Shown here in pieces: positions 37,114 to 49,515 of a stretch of 64,000 bases of DNA. Origin of the DNA: Gammaproteobacteria bacterium (lineage in GTDB: Bacteria; Pseudomonadota; Gammaproteobacteria; JAJPIJ01). The notes beneath the pieces are model-generated. The model saw only the letters and a program-made list of their open reading frames with translations, searched no databases and was not told where the DNA came from. The first letter of the stretch is position 1. Each line of letters begins with the position of its first letter. The translations under genes were made by a program, and so were the position numbers. Location: the NCBI GenBank assembly GCA_022071965.1, contig JAJVIQ010000021.1, positions 216,423 through 280,422 on the forward strand, given 5' to 3'.

Positions 37114-38080
37114 TGGCCGCTACAACGCGCGGGTGCCATTCCGGGCTCGCGCACAGTATCCCTCCATTGCGTTCCAGGCGCCGGCCGACGCCAAAGTCGA
37201 ACGGACGGCCGCGCATGTCGCTGACCCGGGCACCGGCCTCCACGGCGATGATCTCACCGGGAGCGTGATCCCAGATGTACTCGCGGTCGTCGGTGCGCAC
37301 CGGCATGCGCAGGTAGCAGTCGGCCTGGCCACGGGCGACGACGGCGTACTTGGCCTGGCTGTCCAGGTGGTAGCGCCGTGCTCCGCCCAGCGCCTCGACG
37401 ACGCGCCCGACGGCCCGCTGATCGGAATGACCCGAGGCGGCGGACTCACAGAGTCGGAACTGCCCGTCGGCGGGCGGCGCATGGCGGACGGGCTGCGGCA
37501 CGCATGCGGGATCGTCCGCAGCGATGCTCCAGCACCCGCCGCCGCGGCGCGCGTGGATGATGAGGCCGTGCGCGTCAGGCTCCGCGAAAGGCCGCGCGAG
37601 ATCGGCGGACAGGTTCGGGCAGCCCAGGACTCCGAATTCGACCCTGCCATCGACAATCCAGGCCAGCGAGATGGCGTACTGGCCGTTGCGCACGAAGCCC
37701 TTGGTGCCGTCGATGGGGTCGAGTGTCCAGAACGCCCGCGCCGGCTCCTGGCCGCCAATGTCGATCGCGGCGAGGGCGTCATCGATCGTGACGTCCGGCC
37801 AGGCCGGTCGCAGGCGCTCCTTCAGGACCCGGCGCAACTGGGCCTGATCATTGGCGCGCAGTATCGAGGCGCTTTCCTCCCCGACGATCACGACGGTCGG
37901 GTCGACGCTCGCCAGGCGACGCGCAATGAGCGCCTGGGCGGCGAAATCGGCCACGGTCACAGGGCTGCGGTCATCCTTGCGCAGGACGTCGCCCGTGCAA
38001 AGCTCGCGCTGTACCGCGCGCGTCACGGCACATGCCTCGCGTACGGCGGCAATGGCGCATTCGAAGGCGCTGGCGATCAT
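37046..38080 (-). CDS. 3'(2'),5'-bisphosphate nucleotidase, Hal2/SAL1-like
   Basis: A 344-residue inositol-monophosphatase-fold enzyme. Metal-binding motifs are VGEESAS, FWTLDPIDGTKGFVRNGQYA and EYIWDHAPGEIIAVEAG. The length and the wording of the DPIDGTKGF block fit the Hal2/SAL1 type (~350 residues) better than E. coli CysQ (246). It would recycle 3'-phosphoadenosine 5'-phosphate from sulfate assimilation. The 3' end overlaps the convergent FAD oxidoreductase gene by 68 bases. Upstream it diverges from phaE. Confidence 0.88.
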   Translation of the reverse strand: MIASAFECAIAAVREACAVTRAVQRELCTGDVLRKDDRSPVTVADFAAQALIARRLASVDPTVVIVGEESASILRANDQAQLRRVLKERLRPAWPDVTIDDALAAIDIGGQEPARAFWTLDPIDGTKGFVRNGQYAISLAWIVDGRVEFGVLGCPNLSADLARPFAEPDAHGLIIHARRGGGCWSIAADDPACVPQPVRHAPPADGQFRLCESAASGHSDQRAVGRVVEALGGARRYHLDSQAKYAVVARGQADCYLRMPVRTDDREYIWDHAPGEIIAVEAGARVSDMRGRPFDFGVGRRLERNGGILCASPEWHPRVVAAISAELAGGDHQSAEDSRGSCRD

Positions 38081-38142
38081 GGGCGTGCATTCTTGTGAAC
38101 GGGGCGCGCATTATATGCATGCGGGTCGCGCAGGCACGCATG

Positions 38143-38153
38143 TTGCAGTGCAA
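38143..38153. promoter_or_regulatory. Candidate PhaR operator upstream of phaEC
   Basis: TTGCA-G-TGCAA is a perfect palindrome of the form TGC-N3-GCA, located 83 bases before the phaE start. PhaR of Paracoccus binds TGC-rich sites with CTGC-N3-GCAG symmetry. A closely similar site lies upstream of phaA, and phaR is encoded in this window. Confidence 0.6.
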
Positions 38154-38235
38154 TATGACGCATGCTAGGCTTTCGTCAACAACTGGCTGTCGGGCCGATG
38201 GCAAGGGACCGACGGCCCGCCCCACACCAATCCGG

Positions 38236-39600
38236 ATGAACGACGCCATGAGCGAGAATCCCTCACAAGCATCATCCTCTCCACCGTGGAACGAACAATG
38301 GCTGCAGGCGCAGCGCGCCTACTGGGATGCGTGGCGCGTCGCCATGCCCGGTACGGGCGGCGCCGGCGGCGCGGCGATCAACCCCTGGGTGCAGGCCCTG
38401 GAGGGCTGGTGGAAATCCGTCGGCGGCATGAAGGGCGATAGTGCCGAGGTATTCGCGCGCATGATGGAGCAGGGCAAGGCCTTCTTCGACCTGGGGCAGC
38501 AGATGAACGAGTTGCTGCGTGCCGTGTCCGACAGCTCGGCGGCCGGGACTGAATGGCAGGAGGTGCTGAAGCAGCGCTTCGACGCCATGAAGGCCTCCAT
38601 GTCCATGCACCAGAGCAGCGAGTGGGCCGAGAGCGTCAAACGCATGGGCGCCTTCTTCGAGCTGCCGCTCGACATGTGGCGGCGCATGTGTTCGGGGGCC
38701 TCCATGCTTCCCGGCGATTGTCTGGAGGCATTTCGCTCGCAGGTGATCGAGGGTATACACGAGAAATTCCACGGCGACATGGACCGCTTCCTCTCGGTGC
38801 CGGGGGTCGGATACACGCGCGAGAGCCAGGCGCAGGTGCAGCAACTTGCGAAGCTGACCCTCGATTACCAGAAGGCGGCGCAGGAATATCTCAACGCGCA
38901 CACCAAGCTCGGTGCCGACGCGCTCGACAGGCTTTACCGGAAGATCATTGCGGTTACCCAGAAAGGCGAGCCGATCACGACGCTGCGCCAGCTCTATGAT
39001 CTGTGGGTGGACGCGAGCGAAGAGGTGTACGGCAGCTTCGCGATGTCGCCTGAGTTCCAGGGAGTCTACGCAAGGATGGTCAACGCGCTGATGCGGGTAA
39101 AGATGCAGACGCGCTCGATGGTGGATGAACTACTCGGTGCGTTCAACATGCCCACGCGGCGCGAGATGAATACCATCCTGAAGCGTCAGCAGGAATTGCG
39201 GCGGGAGATGCGCGCACTACACAAGGGGACGGGCGACTGGACACCGCCGCCACGCGGGCGGCGCAACGGTCCGGACACTGACGCCGAGGAAGTCGACATC
39301 CTCCGCGGCGAACTCGCCGCGCTGCGCGAACAGGTGGGTGCGTTGCAGGCGGCACTGGCCAAGGATCGTGCCGCGGCGGAGGAGCCGGGCGGCATCGCAG
39401 CGCCGGTGGTGGCCATGCGCAAGTCGCGGCGCCCGCCTTCGCAGCGCGCGGTGAAGGCCGAGACACCCAGAACGGCCGAGCGTGCGCAGCGCGCGAGGTC
39501 GACCGTCGCCAAATCGCGGCCGAGCTGGGACATCGGCAGCATCACCAACGATGCCACCGTCACGCCGCTGGCCACTCCCCGCAGCGGCAACCAGCGATGA
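38236..39600 (+). CDS. phaE: PhaE, class III polyhydroxyalkanoate synthase subunit
   Basis: The non-catalytic subunit that activates PhaC at the granule surface. The 454-residue product has the PhaE family core at about residues 10-330: NEQWLQAQRAYWDAW at the start, later LYDLWVDASEEVYGSFAMSPEFQ and the KRQQELRREMRALHK helix. A further coiled-coil segment (about 355-385, EEVDILRGELAALREQVGAL) and a Pro/Arg/Lys-rich tail of ~60 residues follow. Allochromatium PhaE is ~357 residues, so the tail is an extension. The first ATG (MNDAM) is used; the next ATG, 12 bases on, is also possible. phaC follows after 36 bases. Confidence 0.93.
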   Translation: MNDAMSENPSQASSSPPWNEQWLQAQRAYWDAWRVAMPGTGGAGGAAINPWVQALEGWWKSVGGMKGDSAEVFARMMEQGKAFFDLGQQMNELLRAVSDSSAAGTEWQEVLKQRFDAMKASMSMHQSSEWAESVKRMGAFFELPLDMWRRMCSGASMLPGDCLEAFRSQVIEGIHEKFHGDMDRFLSVPGVGYTRESQAQVQQLAKLTLDYQKAAQEYLNAHTKLGADALDRLYRKIIAVTQKGEPITTLRQLYDLWVDASEEVYGSFAMSPEFQGVYARMVNALMRVKMQTRSMVDELLGAFNMPTRREMNTILKRQQELRREMRALHKGTGDWTPPPRGRRNGPDTDAEEVDILRGELAALREQVGALQAALAKDRAAAEEPGGIAAPVVAMRKSRRPPSQRAVKAETPRTAERAQRARSTVAKSRPSWDIGSITNDATVTPLATPRSGNQR

Positions 39601-39636
39601 CCCGTATACGACACACGCGTTGAGGAGCAGTGACAC

Positions 39637-40701
39637 ATGATGCCTTTTCAGATCAAGCCCGATGAGGCGCTCAAGGAGGTTCAGCAGGTCGGTGAGAAGC
39701 TCGCCAAGGGCTTCAAGACCCTGAGCGAACTCGGCGATATCGAGGTCGGTTGCACGCCCAAGGAGGCAATCTATCACGAGGACAAGGCGACGCTGTATCA
39801 CTTCATTCCCTTCGCAGAGATCAAGAACAGGACGCCGCTGCTGGTGATCTACGCGCTCGTGAACCGGCCGTACATGGCGGATCTGCAGATGGACCGCTCG
39901 ATGATCCGGGGCCTGATGCAGGGCGGCGAGGACGTGTATCTCATCGACTGGGGCTACCCCGACGGGGGCGATCGCTTCCTGACGCTTGATGACTACATCA
40001 ACGGCTACATCGACAACTGCGTCGACGTGCTGCGCAAGCGCCACGGCGTGGAGGCCGTCAACATCCTGGGTATCTGCCAGGGCGGCGCCTTCAGCCTTTG
40101 CTATGCCTCGCTGCATCCCGGGAAGGTCAGGAATCTGGTCACGACGGTCACGCCGGTGGATTTCCACACCGAGAAGGACATGTTGAGTCACTGGGTCCGC
40201 AACGTGGATATCGATCTCGTAATAGACACGATGGGCAACGTGCCCGGGGAAGTTCTCAATTTCACCTTTCTTTCGCTGATGCCGTTTCGGCTCTCGGGGC
40301 AGAAGTATCTGGACATGATCAACACGTTGGACGATCCGATCGCGGCAAGGAACTTCATGCGCATGGAGAAGTGGATATTCGACAGTCCGGATCAGGCCGG
40401 TGAGGCCTATCGGCAGTTCATCAAGGACTTCTACCAGGGCAACAAGCTCATCAGGGGCGAGGTGATGCTGGGCGAGAACCAGGTAAAACTCTCGAACGTG
40501 ACCATGCCGGTGCTGAACATCTTCGCGAGCGCCGATCACCTGGTACCTCCAGCGTCCTCGCGCGCGCTCGAGCGCTTCGTCGGCACCAGGGACTACACGG
40601 CGTTGGAGTTCCCGGGCGGCCATATCGGCATCTACGTCAGCGGCAAGGCTCAGAAGATGATCCCTCCCGCTGTCTGCGACTGGCTGGCCAAGCGTAGCTG
40701 A
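39637..40701 (+). CDS. phaC: PhaC, class III polyhydroxyalkanoate synthase catalytic subunit
   Basis: Polymerises 3-hydroxybutyryl-CoA into PHB. The 354-residue alpha/beta-hydrolase has the lipase-like box GICQGG with nucleophile Cys147, the acid Asp300 (FASADHLVPP) and His329 (FPGGHIGIYV). This corresponds to Cys149-Asp302-His331 of the 355-residue Allochromatium enzyme. Length and the presence of PhaE upstream define class III. Two adjacent ATGs start the gene. A strong terminator follows 54 bases after the stop. Confidence 0.97.
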   Translation: MMPFQIKPDEALKEVQQVGEKLAKGFKTLSELGDIEVGCTPKEAIYHEDKATLYHFIPFAEIKNRTPLLVIYALVNRPYMADLQMDRSMIRGLMQGGEDVYLIDWGYPDGGDRFLTLDDYINGYIDNCVDVLRKRHGVEAVNILGICQGGAFSLCYASLHPGKVRNLVTTVTPVDFHTEKDMLSHWVRNVDIDLVIDTMGNVPGEVLNFTFLSLMPFRLSGQKYLDMINTLDDPIAARNFMRMEKWIFDSPDQAGEAYRQFIKDFYQGNKLIRGEVMLGENQVKLSNVTMPVLNIFASADHLVPPASSRALERFVGTRDYTALEFPGGHIGIYVSGKAQKMIPPAVCDWLAKRS

Positions 40702-45972: not shown

Positions 45973-46003
45973 GAAAAGAACGAGCCCCGCGAAGGGCGGG
46001 GCT
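45973..46003 (-). terminator. Rho-independent terminator of the phaA-phaB-phaR-phaB2 operon
   Basis: Read leftward, AGCCCCGC pairs with GCGGGGCT around a short loop and is followed by CGTTCTTTT. It sits ~35 bases beyond the phaB2 stop and ends the minus-strand pha transcript. Confidence 0.8.
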
Positions 46004-46037: not shown

Positions 46038-47003
46038 CTACATCATGAAAAGCCCGCCGTTGATGGAGAGATCAGAGCCGGTGATGTAACCGCTTTCGTC
46101 CGATGCCAGAAAGGCCACGGCATGGGCGATCTCGGAGGGTTCCGCGAACCGTCCGACCGGGATCTTGGCGATGATGCCGTTGCGCACGTCTTCCGGCACC
46201 GCCATGGCCATCTTGGTGTTCACGTAGCCGGGCGATACCGTGTTGACGGTGATGCCCTGATCGGCCAGCTCGCGCGCCAGCGAGCGCGTGAAACCGATCA
46301 TGCCCGCCTTGGCGGCGGAATAGTTGGTCTGGCCGAACTGGCCCTTTTGACCGTTCACCGATGAGATGTTGATGACGCGGCCGAAATGCCGCGATGACAT
46401 TCCGTCGATGAACTGCTTGGTCACGTTGAATACACTGTCGAGGTTGGTGTCGAGCACCGCGTGCCAATGCGCCTCGTCCATCTTGCGCAGGGTGTTGTCC
46501 TTGGTGATGCCGGCGCAGTTCACGAGGATGTCGGCGCCGCCGTACTTCTTCTCGATTTCCCTGGCCATGTGCTCGCAAGAAACGAAGTCGGTGACGTTGC
46601 ACTCCACGACGTCTATGTCGAGGCCCTCGGCCTTTCGATCCTTCTGCCATTGCTTCGCGAAATCGGCCTCCGGAGCGATGTAGGTCGACACCACCTGGCA
46701 GCCGTTCCTGGCGAGCTTGCGGCAGATCTCCGTGCCAATCCCGCCGCAGCCGCCGGTGACGACCGCCACACGCCGCGTGGTTTTTTTCACCGCCGATCGG
46801 GCCGGGGCGGATCGCATCGCCAGGGCCGGGTTGAACATGCGAGTGCCGCTGATGAGATTGGCCGTCAGGTCGTTGATGTGCTTGATTGTCGCGCCATCGA
46901 TCACCTCCGCGGCAAATTCCGCCATCTGCATCATCGACTTGAATGCCGCCTCCATCGACTTCGTCCACTGCTCCATGATTTGCATCGGCAGGGGGTGGAT
47001 CAT
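46038..47003 (-). CDS. Acetoacetyl-CoA reductase paralogue with phasin-like N-terminal extension
   Basis: A 321-residue protein. Residues ~78-321 are a full short-chain dehydrogenase of the PhaB type. The NADPH site is VAVVTGGCGGIGTE and the Ser/Tyr/Lys set is in NISSVNGQKGQFGQTNYSAAKAG. The ending GSDLSINGGLFMM is typical of PhaB. It is about 60% alike by eye to the neighbouring phaB product. Residues 1-77 are extra: an amphipathic helical stretch (MEQWTKSMEAAFKSMMQMAE, then GATIKHINDLTANLISGT) and an Ala/Lys linker, like a short phasin. The ATG at 47003 has a GGAG ribosome site and lies 17 bases after phaR. The reductase would make (R)-3-hydroxybutyryl-CoA. Confidence 0.88.
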   Translation of the reverse strand: MIHPLPMQIMEQWTKSMEAAFKSMMQMAEFAAEVIDGATIKHINDLTANLISGTRMFNPALAMRSAPARSAVKKTTRRVAVVTGGCGGIGTEICRKLARNGCQVVSTYIAPEADFAKQWQKDRKAEGLDIDVVECNVTDFVSCEHMAREIEKKYGGADILVNCAGITKDNTLRKMDEAHWHAVLDTNLDSVFNVTKQFIDGMSSRHFGRVINISSVNGQKGQFGQTNYSAAKAGMIGFTRSLARELADQGITVNTVSPGYVNTKMAMAVPEDVRNGIIAKIPVGRFAEPSEIAHAVAFLASDESGYITGSDLSINGGLFMM

Positions 47004-47019
47004 GGGGAACAACTCCGCC

Positions 47020-47538
47020 TTACTTGTCGGACTGCTCGGCATCATCAGGCTCCTGTTGCGTATCGTCGGTCGGCGAGGCCGGCTTCTTGCTCATTCCGGT
47101 CGCCTTGAAGAACTCGTTCTGCATGCGCCGCCACAACTCCATGTTGCGCTCCGTCATCTCCTGCATCGCACCCAGGGGATTGCCGGCGACTGCGCGCGTC
47201 ATCTGCTGCTGGAAGGCCTGCTGCTGTTCGGCGAGCATTCCCAGGCTCTGCTGGATGAAATTGGACGCGGCTCCCTGCATGGACTTGCCATAGAAACCAA
47301 TCAGCTGCTGCAGCATGTCCGTGGAAAACACCGGCGAGCCCGCCTCCTCCTGTTCAATGATGATCTGCAGAAGGATGTTGCGGGTGATGTCCTCACCTGT
47401 CTGCTTGTCCGTCACCAGGAAAGGCACGCCCTCGAGGACGAGCTTCTTTACGTCGTCGAGGGTGATGTACTTGCTTTCCGTCGTGTCGTAGAGGCGGCGG
47501 TTCGGATACTTTTTGATAACGCGCTTTTCAATCGTCAT
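47020..47538 (-). CDS. phaR: PhaR, polyhydroxyalkanoate synthesis repressor
   Basis: A 172-residue regulator. The N-terminal PHB/PHA accumulation DNA-binding domain is MTIEKRVIKKYPNRRLYDTT and on to the SKYITLDDVKKLVLEG segment (residues ~1-60). A second domain from about 65 follows (ILLQIIIEQEEAGSPVFST, LQQLIGFYG). The Gln-rich helical end contacts polymer. PhaR binds nascent PHA granules and releases DNA, so pha and phasin genes are derepressed when polymer forms. The chosen ATG removes eight non-conserved residues. It lies between the two reductase genes in the minus-strand operon. Confidence 0.95.
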   Translation of the reverse strand: MTIEKRVIKKYPNRRLYDTTESKYITLDDVKKLVLEGVPFLVTDKQTGEDITRNILLQIIIEQEEAGSPVFSTDMLQQLIGFYGKSMQGAASNFIQQSLGMLAEQQQAFQQQMTRAVAGNPLGAMQEMTERNMELWRRMQNEFFKATGMSKKPASPTDDTQQEPDDAEQSDK

Positions 47539-47565: not shown

Positions 47566-48309
47566 CTACATCATATGCTGTCCACCGTTGGCGGCAATAT
47601 CCGCCCCAGTGATGAAGCCGGCCTCGGGCGCGGCGAGGAAGTCGACCACGAAGGCCACGTCCTCGACGGTACCGAGGCGGCCGACCGGGATCTGGGCGAT
47701 GATCTGCTTGCGGATATCCTCGGGCACGGCCATGACCATCTCGGTGGCGATGTAGCCGGGCGACAGCGTGTTGACCGTCACTCCCTTGCGCGCCACTTCC
47801 TGTGCAAGAGCCATCGTGAAACCGTGCATGCCGGCCTTGGCGGCCGAATAGTTGCACTGGCCGATCTGGCCCTTCTGCCCGTTTATCGACGAGATGTTGA
47901 TGATACGGCCGAAACCGCGATCGGTCATCCCCTGCACGACCTGACGGCTCATGTTGAATACGCTGTCGAGATTGGTGTTCAGCACCGTGTTCCACTGCTC
48001 CCAGGTCATCTTGCGCAGCGTCGTATCCATGGTGATGCCGGCATTGTTGACGAGGATGTCGACCGGCCCGAGCTCCTTCTCGACGGCAGCAACGAAATCC
48101 TTGCAGGCATTGAAGTCGGTCACGTCGCACTTGTGGGCGAAGAAGGACTGACCCTTGTTTTGCTCCTGCCAGTGCTTGAGCTTTTGATCGCTGCGGTAGT
48201 TGGTGGCGACCCTGGCGCCGGAATCGGAAAGCTGTCTGCAAATGGCCGTGCCGATGGCTCCTGTGCCCCCCGTTACGATGGCCACTTTATCTTTCAAACT
48301 GGTTTTCAT
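47566..48309 (-). CDS. phaB: PhaB, acetoacetyl-CoA reductase
   Basis: A 247-residue NADPH-dependent reductase making (R)-3-hydroxybutyryl-CoA. The cofactor site is VAIVTGGTGAIGTAICRQL. The catalytic Ser-Tyr-Lys lies in INISSINGQKGQIGQCNYSA followed by AKAG. The substrate region includes the family segment SPGYIATEMVMAVPE and the ending GGQHMM. Length and start are those of canonical PhaB. It follows phaA by 27 bases and precedes phaR by 27 bases. Confidence 0.97.
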   Translation of the reverse strand: MKTSLKDKVAIVTGGTGAIGTAICRQLSDSGARVATNYRSDQKLKHWQEQNKGQSFFAHKCDVTDFNACKDFVAAVEKELGPVDILVNNAGITMDTTLRKMTWEQWNTVLNTNLDSVFNMSRQVVQGMTDRGFGRIINISSINGQKGQIGQCNYSAAKAGMHGFTMALAQEVARKGVTVNTLSPGYIATEMVMAVPEDIRKQIIAQIPVGRLGTVEDVAFVVDFLAAPEAGFITGADIAANGGQHMM

Positions 48310-48336: not shown

Positions 48337-49515
48337 TTATCGTTCCACGGCCAACGCTACACCCTGGCCGCCGCCTATGCACAGCGTCGCGAGGCCCTTG
48401 TGCGCATTGCGTCGCTTCATCTCGTGCAGGAGTGTGACGAGCACACGGCAGCCCGAGGCCCCGATGGGATGACCGAGCGCGATGGCGCCGCCGTTGACGT
48501 TCACCTTGCTGGTGTCCCAGCCGAGATCGTGATCGACGGACATGGCCTGGGCCGCGAATGCCTCGTTGGCCTCGATGAGGTCGAGATCCCCGATCTTCCA
48601 CGTGGCCTTCTCCAGGCAGCGACGGGTGGCGGGTATCGGGCCGGTGCCCATGATCTTGGGGTCGACGCCAGCGCTCGCGTAAGCGACGATCCGAGCAAGG
48701 GGAGTCAGGCCAAGTTCCTTCGCCTTGCGCTCGCTCATCACGATGCACATGGCGGCGCCATCATTGATTCCGGAGGCATTGCCGGCTGTGACGGAGCCTT
48801 CCTTGTCGAAGGCGGGTTTCAGCTTGCCCAGGGACTCCGGCGTCGTGCCGGCACGGGGGTATTCGTCCTTGCTGAAGACCAGGGGGTCGCCCTTGCGCTG
48901 GGGGATCTCCACGGGAATGATCTCCTCGTCGAACCTGCCCGCCTTCTGGGCGGCCTCGGTCTTCTGCTGCGAGGCGGCGGCGAAGCGGTCCTGGGCCTCG
49001 CGGGTGAATTTGTACTTCTTGACGATGTTCTCGGCGGTGACGCCCATGTGGCAGCTGTTGAAGACGTCGGTCAGACCCTCGTTGATCATGTGATCCTTCA
49101 TCACCCAGTCGCCCATCTTGTTGCCGACGCGGGACTTGGGCAGGATGTGGGGAGACGTCGACATGCTCTCCTGGCCGCCGGCGACGATGATCTCCGCATC
49201 CCCGGCACGGATCGCCTGCGCCGCCAGTGCAACGGCCTTGAGTCCGGAGCCGCAAACCTTGTTGACGGTCATGGCCGGTACGGTGTCGGGCAGGCCGGCG
49301 TAGATGGCGGCCTGACGGGCGGGGTTCATGCCCACGCCGGCGGTCAGCACGTGGCCGATGATGACCTCATCAACCTGATCCGGCTTGATGCCTGCCTTCG
49401 CGAGCAGACCGGCAATGACCTTGGCCCCGAGCTGCGCCGCCGGGATTTCCGAAAGGGTGCCGCCGAAACTGCCGATAGCGGTGCGACCCGCTGCAACGAT
49501 TACCGCGTTTTCCAT
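48337..49515 (-). CDS. phaA: PhaA, acetyl-CoA C-acetyltransferase (beta-ketothiolase)
   Basis: A 392-residue biosynthetic thiolase condensing two acetyl-CoA. The acyl-accepting Cys88 is in [12 protein letters not shown]. The second site has [17 protein letters not shown] with the conserved histidine, and the proton-shuttling cysteine is in [12 protein letters not shown]. Ribosome site GGAGGAAAT lies right before the ATG. It is the first gene of the phaA-phaB-phaR-phaB2 operon. A palindrome fitting a PhaR operator lies ~85-100 bases upstream. Confidence 0.97.

Follow-up and report, generated by a model that had tools for sequence, protein, structure and literature searches.

The stretch of DNA analysed here (64,000 nt, in the following the window) encodes a reductase joined to part of a phasin. 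PhaB2, the product of the last gene of a phaA-phaB1-phaR-phaB2 operon, is composed of a phasin half, a flexible linker and an acetoacetyl-CoA reductase, and most likely, i.e., with a probability that we put moderately above even, is placed on the surface of PHB granules or in their phasin coat. Our computations support that the extension is translated, constrained and homologous to phasins and that the fusion arose once. From the sequences, we reasonably infer that tethering to PHB granules for local supply is the best explanation. The locus comprises the following features:

38032-39600, plus strand: ORF containing phaE, class III synthase subunit (PF09712)
39637-40701, plus strand: phaC, class III PHA synthase (TIGR01836)
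45983-46003, minus strand: intrinsic-terminator-like hairpin, 34 nt past the phaB2 stop
46038-47003, minus strand: phaB2, acetoacetyl-CoA reductase with N-terminal half-phasin, 321 aa from the ATG at 47003
46041-46772, minus strand: SDR reductase domain of PhaB2, complete, residues 78-321 (TGGxGGIG, S215, Y228 and K232 present)
46773-46832, minus strand: linker of PhaB2, residues 58-77, constraint relaxed, mostly unstructured in the model
46833-47003, minus strand: half-phasin segment of PhaB2, residues 1-57, long amphipathic helix homologous to the N-terminal half of Phasin_2 (PF09361)
47020-47538, minus strand: phaR, PHA synthesis repressor (TIGR01848)
47566-48309, minus strand: phaB1, acetoacetyl-CoA reductase without extension
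48337-49515, minus strand: phaA, acetyl-CoA acetyltransferase

The class III phaE-phaC pair (38032-40701) lies on the strand opposite to the phaB2 operon, whose end is probably marked by the hairpin downstream of the phaB2 stop codon (46038-46040, minus strand). A PADLOC run found no system. Residues 78-320 of PhaB2 match TIGR01829 with 369.3 bits (cut-off 302.1) over profile positions 1-242 of 242, and the catalytic S215, Y228 and K232 as well as G84, G87 and G90 are invariant in the SDR alignment. Both profile and motif place PhaB2 in the PhaB family. Its best relatives in the PDB, i.e., solved PhaB chains, align to residues 75-320 only. The original prediction of two PhaB-type reductases flanking phaR, the second with about 77 extra residues before a complete reductase, thus agrees with the family matches of phaB1, phaR and phaB2 and with the start of the SDR domain at residue 78.

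To quantify constraint along the gene, we used the congener G001, which is 94% identical to the window. Residues 1-57 show 14 synonymous and 4 nonsynonymous differences (dN/dS 0.051), which is in the range of the SDR domain (0.066), and the linker (residues 58-77) is relaxed with 1 synonymous and 4 nonsynonymous differences. Neither of the remaining reading frames of this DNA has such a pattern. Since dN/dS over residues 1-57 is as low as in the enzyme, and this in a frame-specific manner, the extension is a constrained protein segment and is translated, the latter as had been predicted. The accompanying term Ala/Lys linker applies to the last ~20 residues only.

To relate the extension to known proteins, we built a profile from six PhaB2 extensions (see below) and searched with it through 369 genomes. 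The ten best non-training matches (E 7e-7 to 4e-4) all read as phasin genes, i.e., hmmscan assigns eight of them to PF09361 (46-69 bits), the ninth coincides with a 72-bit PF09361 match and the tenth (L151) was judged a phasin by eye. For the reverse test, we took PF09361-selected phasins, removed the genes found by the extension profile and built a profile from the rest. All six extensions score against it above 1000/1000 shuffles, and each also beats its own reversal; the weakest score is that of the G031 extension (7 bits). The phasin profile also picks the fusion ORFs from the ORF sets of three loci (E 3e-6, 2e-5 and 2e-4). The match is colinear and limited to the N-terminal half of the phasin (profile about 4-58). 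That is, the predicted phasin-like character is exceeded, and the profile tests in both directions point to homology beyond mere resemblance.

Family databases give a more restricted picture of the segment. Pfam and NCBIfam do not recognise the extension alone, and PF09361 has no match to the PhaB2 of the window at E <= 1, i.e., its gathering cut-off of 24.9 bits is not reached. The best PF09361 score among the relatives is 12.5 bits (L003, E 0.17, profile 2-51). Phasin_2 is a two-helix domain of about 100 residues; PhaB2 lacks the second phasin helix, and its extension is homologous in register in both profile directions. Below the cut-off and with an incomplete domain, PhaB2 is by these profile comparisons not a phasin family member but carries a phasin-derived segment.

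Some further comparisons were discarded. The C-terminus of PhaR as a source of the extension gave weaker and inconsistent scores, which were reached by 93-523 of 1000 shuffles for 3/6 extensions. Taken alone, a profile of eight phasins gives no more than a hint (0-42 of 1000 shuffles do as well, hhalign probability 34), and a 40-phasin profile that included extension-found matches was circular and was replaced by the profile without them. The tblastn match of residues 8-77 in Thioalkalivibrio sulfidiphilus (L060) passes a stop and continues in a distinct phasin gene.

The predicted amphipathic helix is also recovered, as the hydrophobic moment of the extension is reached by just 7/5000 shuffles. 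An AF2 model of PhaB2 places one helix at residues 6-55, followed by an unstructured linker and the SDR domain, with low confidence for the extension (pLDDT 34-51). The phasin homology ends at roughly the same place as the helix (residue 55) and the strong constraint (taken to drop at 57). In the PhaP of A. hydrophila, helix 2 covers residues 17-60 and helix 3 residues 66-109 (PMC5180188). Given these positions and the half-domain match, the fusion appears to keep helices 1-2 without helix 3. With the Phasin_2 phasins (A. hydrophila PhaP 5IP0 and the phaP products encoded beside phaB in Ectothiorhodospira, T. sulfidiphilus and Marichromatium), the extension shares the N-terminal helix with its '(F/M)(E/D/N)QW'-like motif, the amphipathic pattern and the pha-cluster context. 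In contrast to them, PhaB2 has just the first half of the domain, joined to an enzyme.

A search for the same segment on other PhaB proteins had been suggested, and the segment is found in five further genomes. The fusion is rare: extended PhaB2 occurs in 6/369 genomes of the class (window, G001, G142, G073, G202 and G031), which belong to four families. Within a 398-genome sample of the phylum, no fusion outside the class was detected at E 1e-85, and searching the families of G142 and G031 as well as the order of the window yielded no further members. All six extended phaB2 genes follow phaR. The full order phaA-phaB1-phaR-phaB2 with extension is present in the window, G001, G142 and G031, and the contig of G073 begins at phaR. 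The arrangement phaB1-phaR-phaB2 without extension is common among relatives.

We computed a tree on the SDR cores alone such that the extension has no influence on the topology. Therein, the six extended enzymes group together in a single clade (bootstrap 99, SH-aLRT 95) within the group of post-phaR PhaB2, with the unfused G014 as sister (97/86). One clade across four families looks like a single old fusion that has been kept since, and the simplest reading of the tree is thus that the half phasin was joined to PhaB2 once.

A phasin gene in this neighbourhood, as predicted for Allochromatium-type clusters, is present in the relatives seen: phaP lies between phaR and phaB in Marichromatium gracile, Ectothiorhodospira mobilis, E. 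haloalkaliphila, T. sulfidiphilus and G018. G014 and G285 have a phasin gene (found by the extension profile) directly downstream of phaB2, and in G142 phaP follows the fused phaB2 at about 1 kb. The present fusion could have originated from an upstream phasin gene that lost its stop and its second half. We note that in most clusters with an upstream phasin the latter shares its frame with the next phaB. The stand-alone phasins L060:3794-4165, L054:3623-3991 and L064:3485-3847 stop a short distance upstream of phaB and share its frame, i.e., they are in a near-fusion arrangement. The genome of the window itself has two weakly scoring stand-alone phasins off the pha operon, namely L049:1447-1809 (26 bits) and L050:1447-1803 (23 bits).

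With regard to function, we infer that PhaB2 sits on granules, gains avidity as a tetramer and supplies its product locally. The amphipathic phasin helix would anchor the reductase at the PHB granule surface or within the phasin coat. PhaB is taken as a tetramer; a PhaB2 tetramer would therefore present four helices and gain avidity. (R)-3-hydroxybutyryl-CoA would then be made beside the PhaEC synthase. The lack of a PF09361 match, the low score of the G031 extension, the low AF2 confidence, the absent second phasin helix and the rarity of the fusion were weighed against this explanation. A granule-anchored reductase is favoured because short phasin fragments reach granules and engineered phasin-enzyme fusions stay active: within another phasin family, a PhaF module 67% shorter than the BioF tag kept its granule affinity and short BioF fragments carried GFP to granules (PMC7267194), and engineered phasin-enzyme fusions remain active on granules (PMC5658603).

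The main rival of granule anchoring is docking to other granule proteins. Here, the half-phasin helix would be a protein-docking module for the coiled-coil bundles of full-length phasins, for PhaE or for PhaR, and the enzyme would reach the granule only via its partner. Phasins do form coiled-coil tetramers (PMC5180188), and potential partners exist given the two stand-alone phasins kept elsewhere in the genome and the nearby phaP of G142. On the other hand, the helix is amphipathic like a phasin helix, and PHA binding is within reach of short phasin fragments (PMC7267194), so there is no need for a partner; we regard docking as rather unlikely. Still less likely is that the helix helps a soluble reductase to oligomerise or stabilises it and that its phasin origin is irrelevant to location. 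The self-association of phasin helices (PMC5180188) was counted in favour of this reading, as was the fact that most PhaB enzymes manage without an extension. Against it speak that the helix, across a relaxed linker, is constrained like the enzyme, that it derives from a family of granule proteins and that the fusion resides within the pha operon in the lineages examined. A mis-called start, i.e., a reductase that begins near residue 75 behind a frame open by chance, is very improbable: chance long open frames exist, e.g., upstream of reductases in L101 and L090, where the sequence is unrelated to the extension, but the extension studied here is under frame-specific purifying selection, recurs in four lineages that form one clade and is homologous to phasins.

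Granule anchoring would also be compatible with a division of labour between the two reductases. PhaB2 has the complete SDR domain in common with PhaB reductases (TIGR01829, e.g., C. necator PhaB1) and differs from the C. necator PhaB1-type by the 77-residue phasin-derived N-terminus, its position in the post-phaR group and a cofactor loop without the PhaB1 Arg. This loop, which follows strand 2, is encoded at 46655-46702 (PhaB2) and 48175-48215 (PhaB1) of the window. PhaB1-type loops have the Arg in 'NYRNEE', while post-phaR PhaB2 are mostly without it (window PhaB2 'TYIAPEAD'). Since R40 of C. necator binds the NADPH phosphate (PMC8904767), PhaB2 may prefer NADH. That the half phasin holds a possibly NADH-using reductase at the granule beside PhaEC, with substrate produced and consumed on the polymer and the untethered PhaB1 serving the cytoplasm, is a tentative proposal to which we give slightly less than an even chance.

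Engineered phasin tags (BioF, MinP and PhaP1 fusions) likewise use a phasin segment as enzyme anchor (PMC5658603, PMC7267194). PhaB2 differs from them in being a natural fusion that would anchor through half of a Phasin_2 domain and carries as cargo the very enzyme that supplies the monomer. None of the papers searched, a set with only a minority of the subscription literature, describes a phasin-PhaB fusion that occurs in nature. PhaB2 is probably anchored to granules by nature, whereas the other anchored enzymes encountered in this analysis are engineered constructs. It is difficult to find out by experiment where PHB monomers are supplied, granule or cytoplasm, since the location of an enzyme can usually not be separated from its activity; with a phasin helix joined to PhaB in a natural and conserved protein, the question becomes directly testable, as the helix can be removed and the enzyme kept. 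Furthermore, selection has preserved half a Phasin_2 domain by itself, which hints at a minimal granule tag of natural origin that biotechnology could use.

Two candidate ribosome sites precede phaB2:

47013-47019, minus strand: Shine-Dalgarno-like GGCGGAG, 9 nt ahead of the ATG at 47003, read from the sequence
47050-47054, minus strand: alternative Shine-Dalgarno-like AGGAG ahead of the ATG-ATG at 47045/47042, within phaR, conserved in G001

The predicted own ribosome site and start after the phaR stop are present, i.e., GGCGGAG and the ATG at 47003, 16 nt downstream of that stop (47020-47022). The choice of this start is less certain than predicted given the rival AGGAG inside phaR. Shine-Dalgarno-like sites also precede the extension starts in other lineages, and the site near the ATG is weaker in G001. 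PhaB2 may be 13-14 aa longer if started at 47042/47045; either start includes the half-phasin segment. The AGGAG and ATG-ATG overlapping the phaR end (47020-47054) could represent a translationally coupled phaB2 start. Finally, the post-phaR phaB2 of G166 (L046), a relative of G014, is apparently frameshifted near its start, due to either decay or an assembly error.
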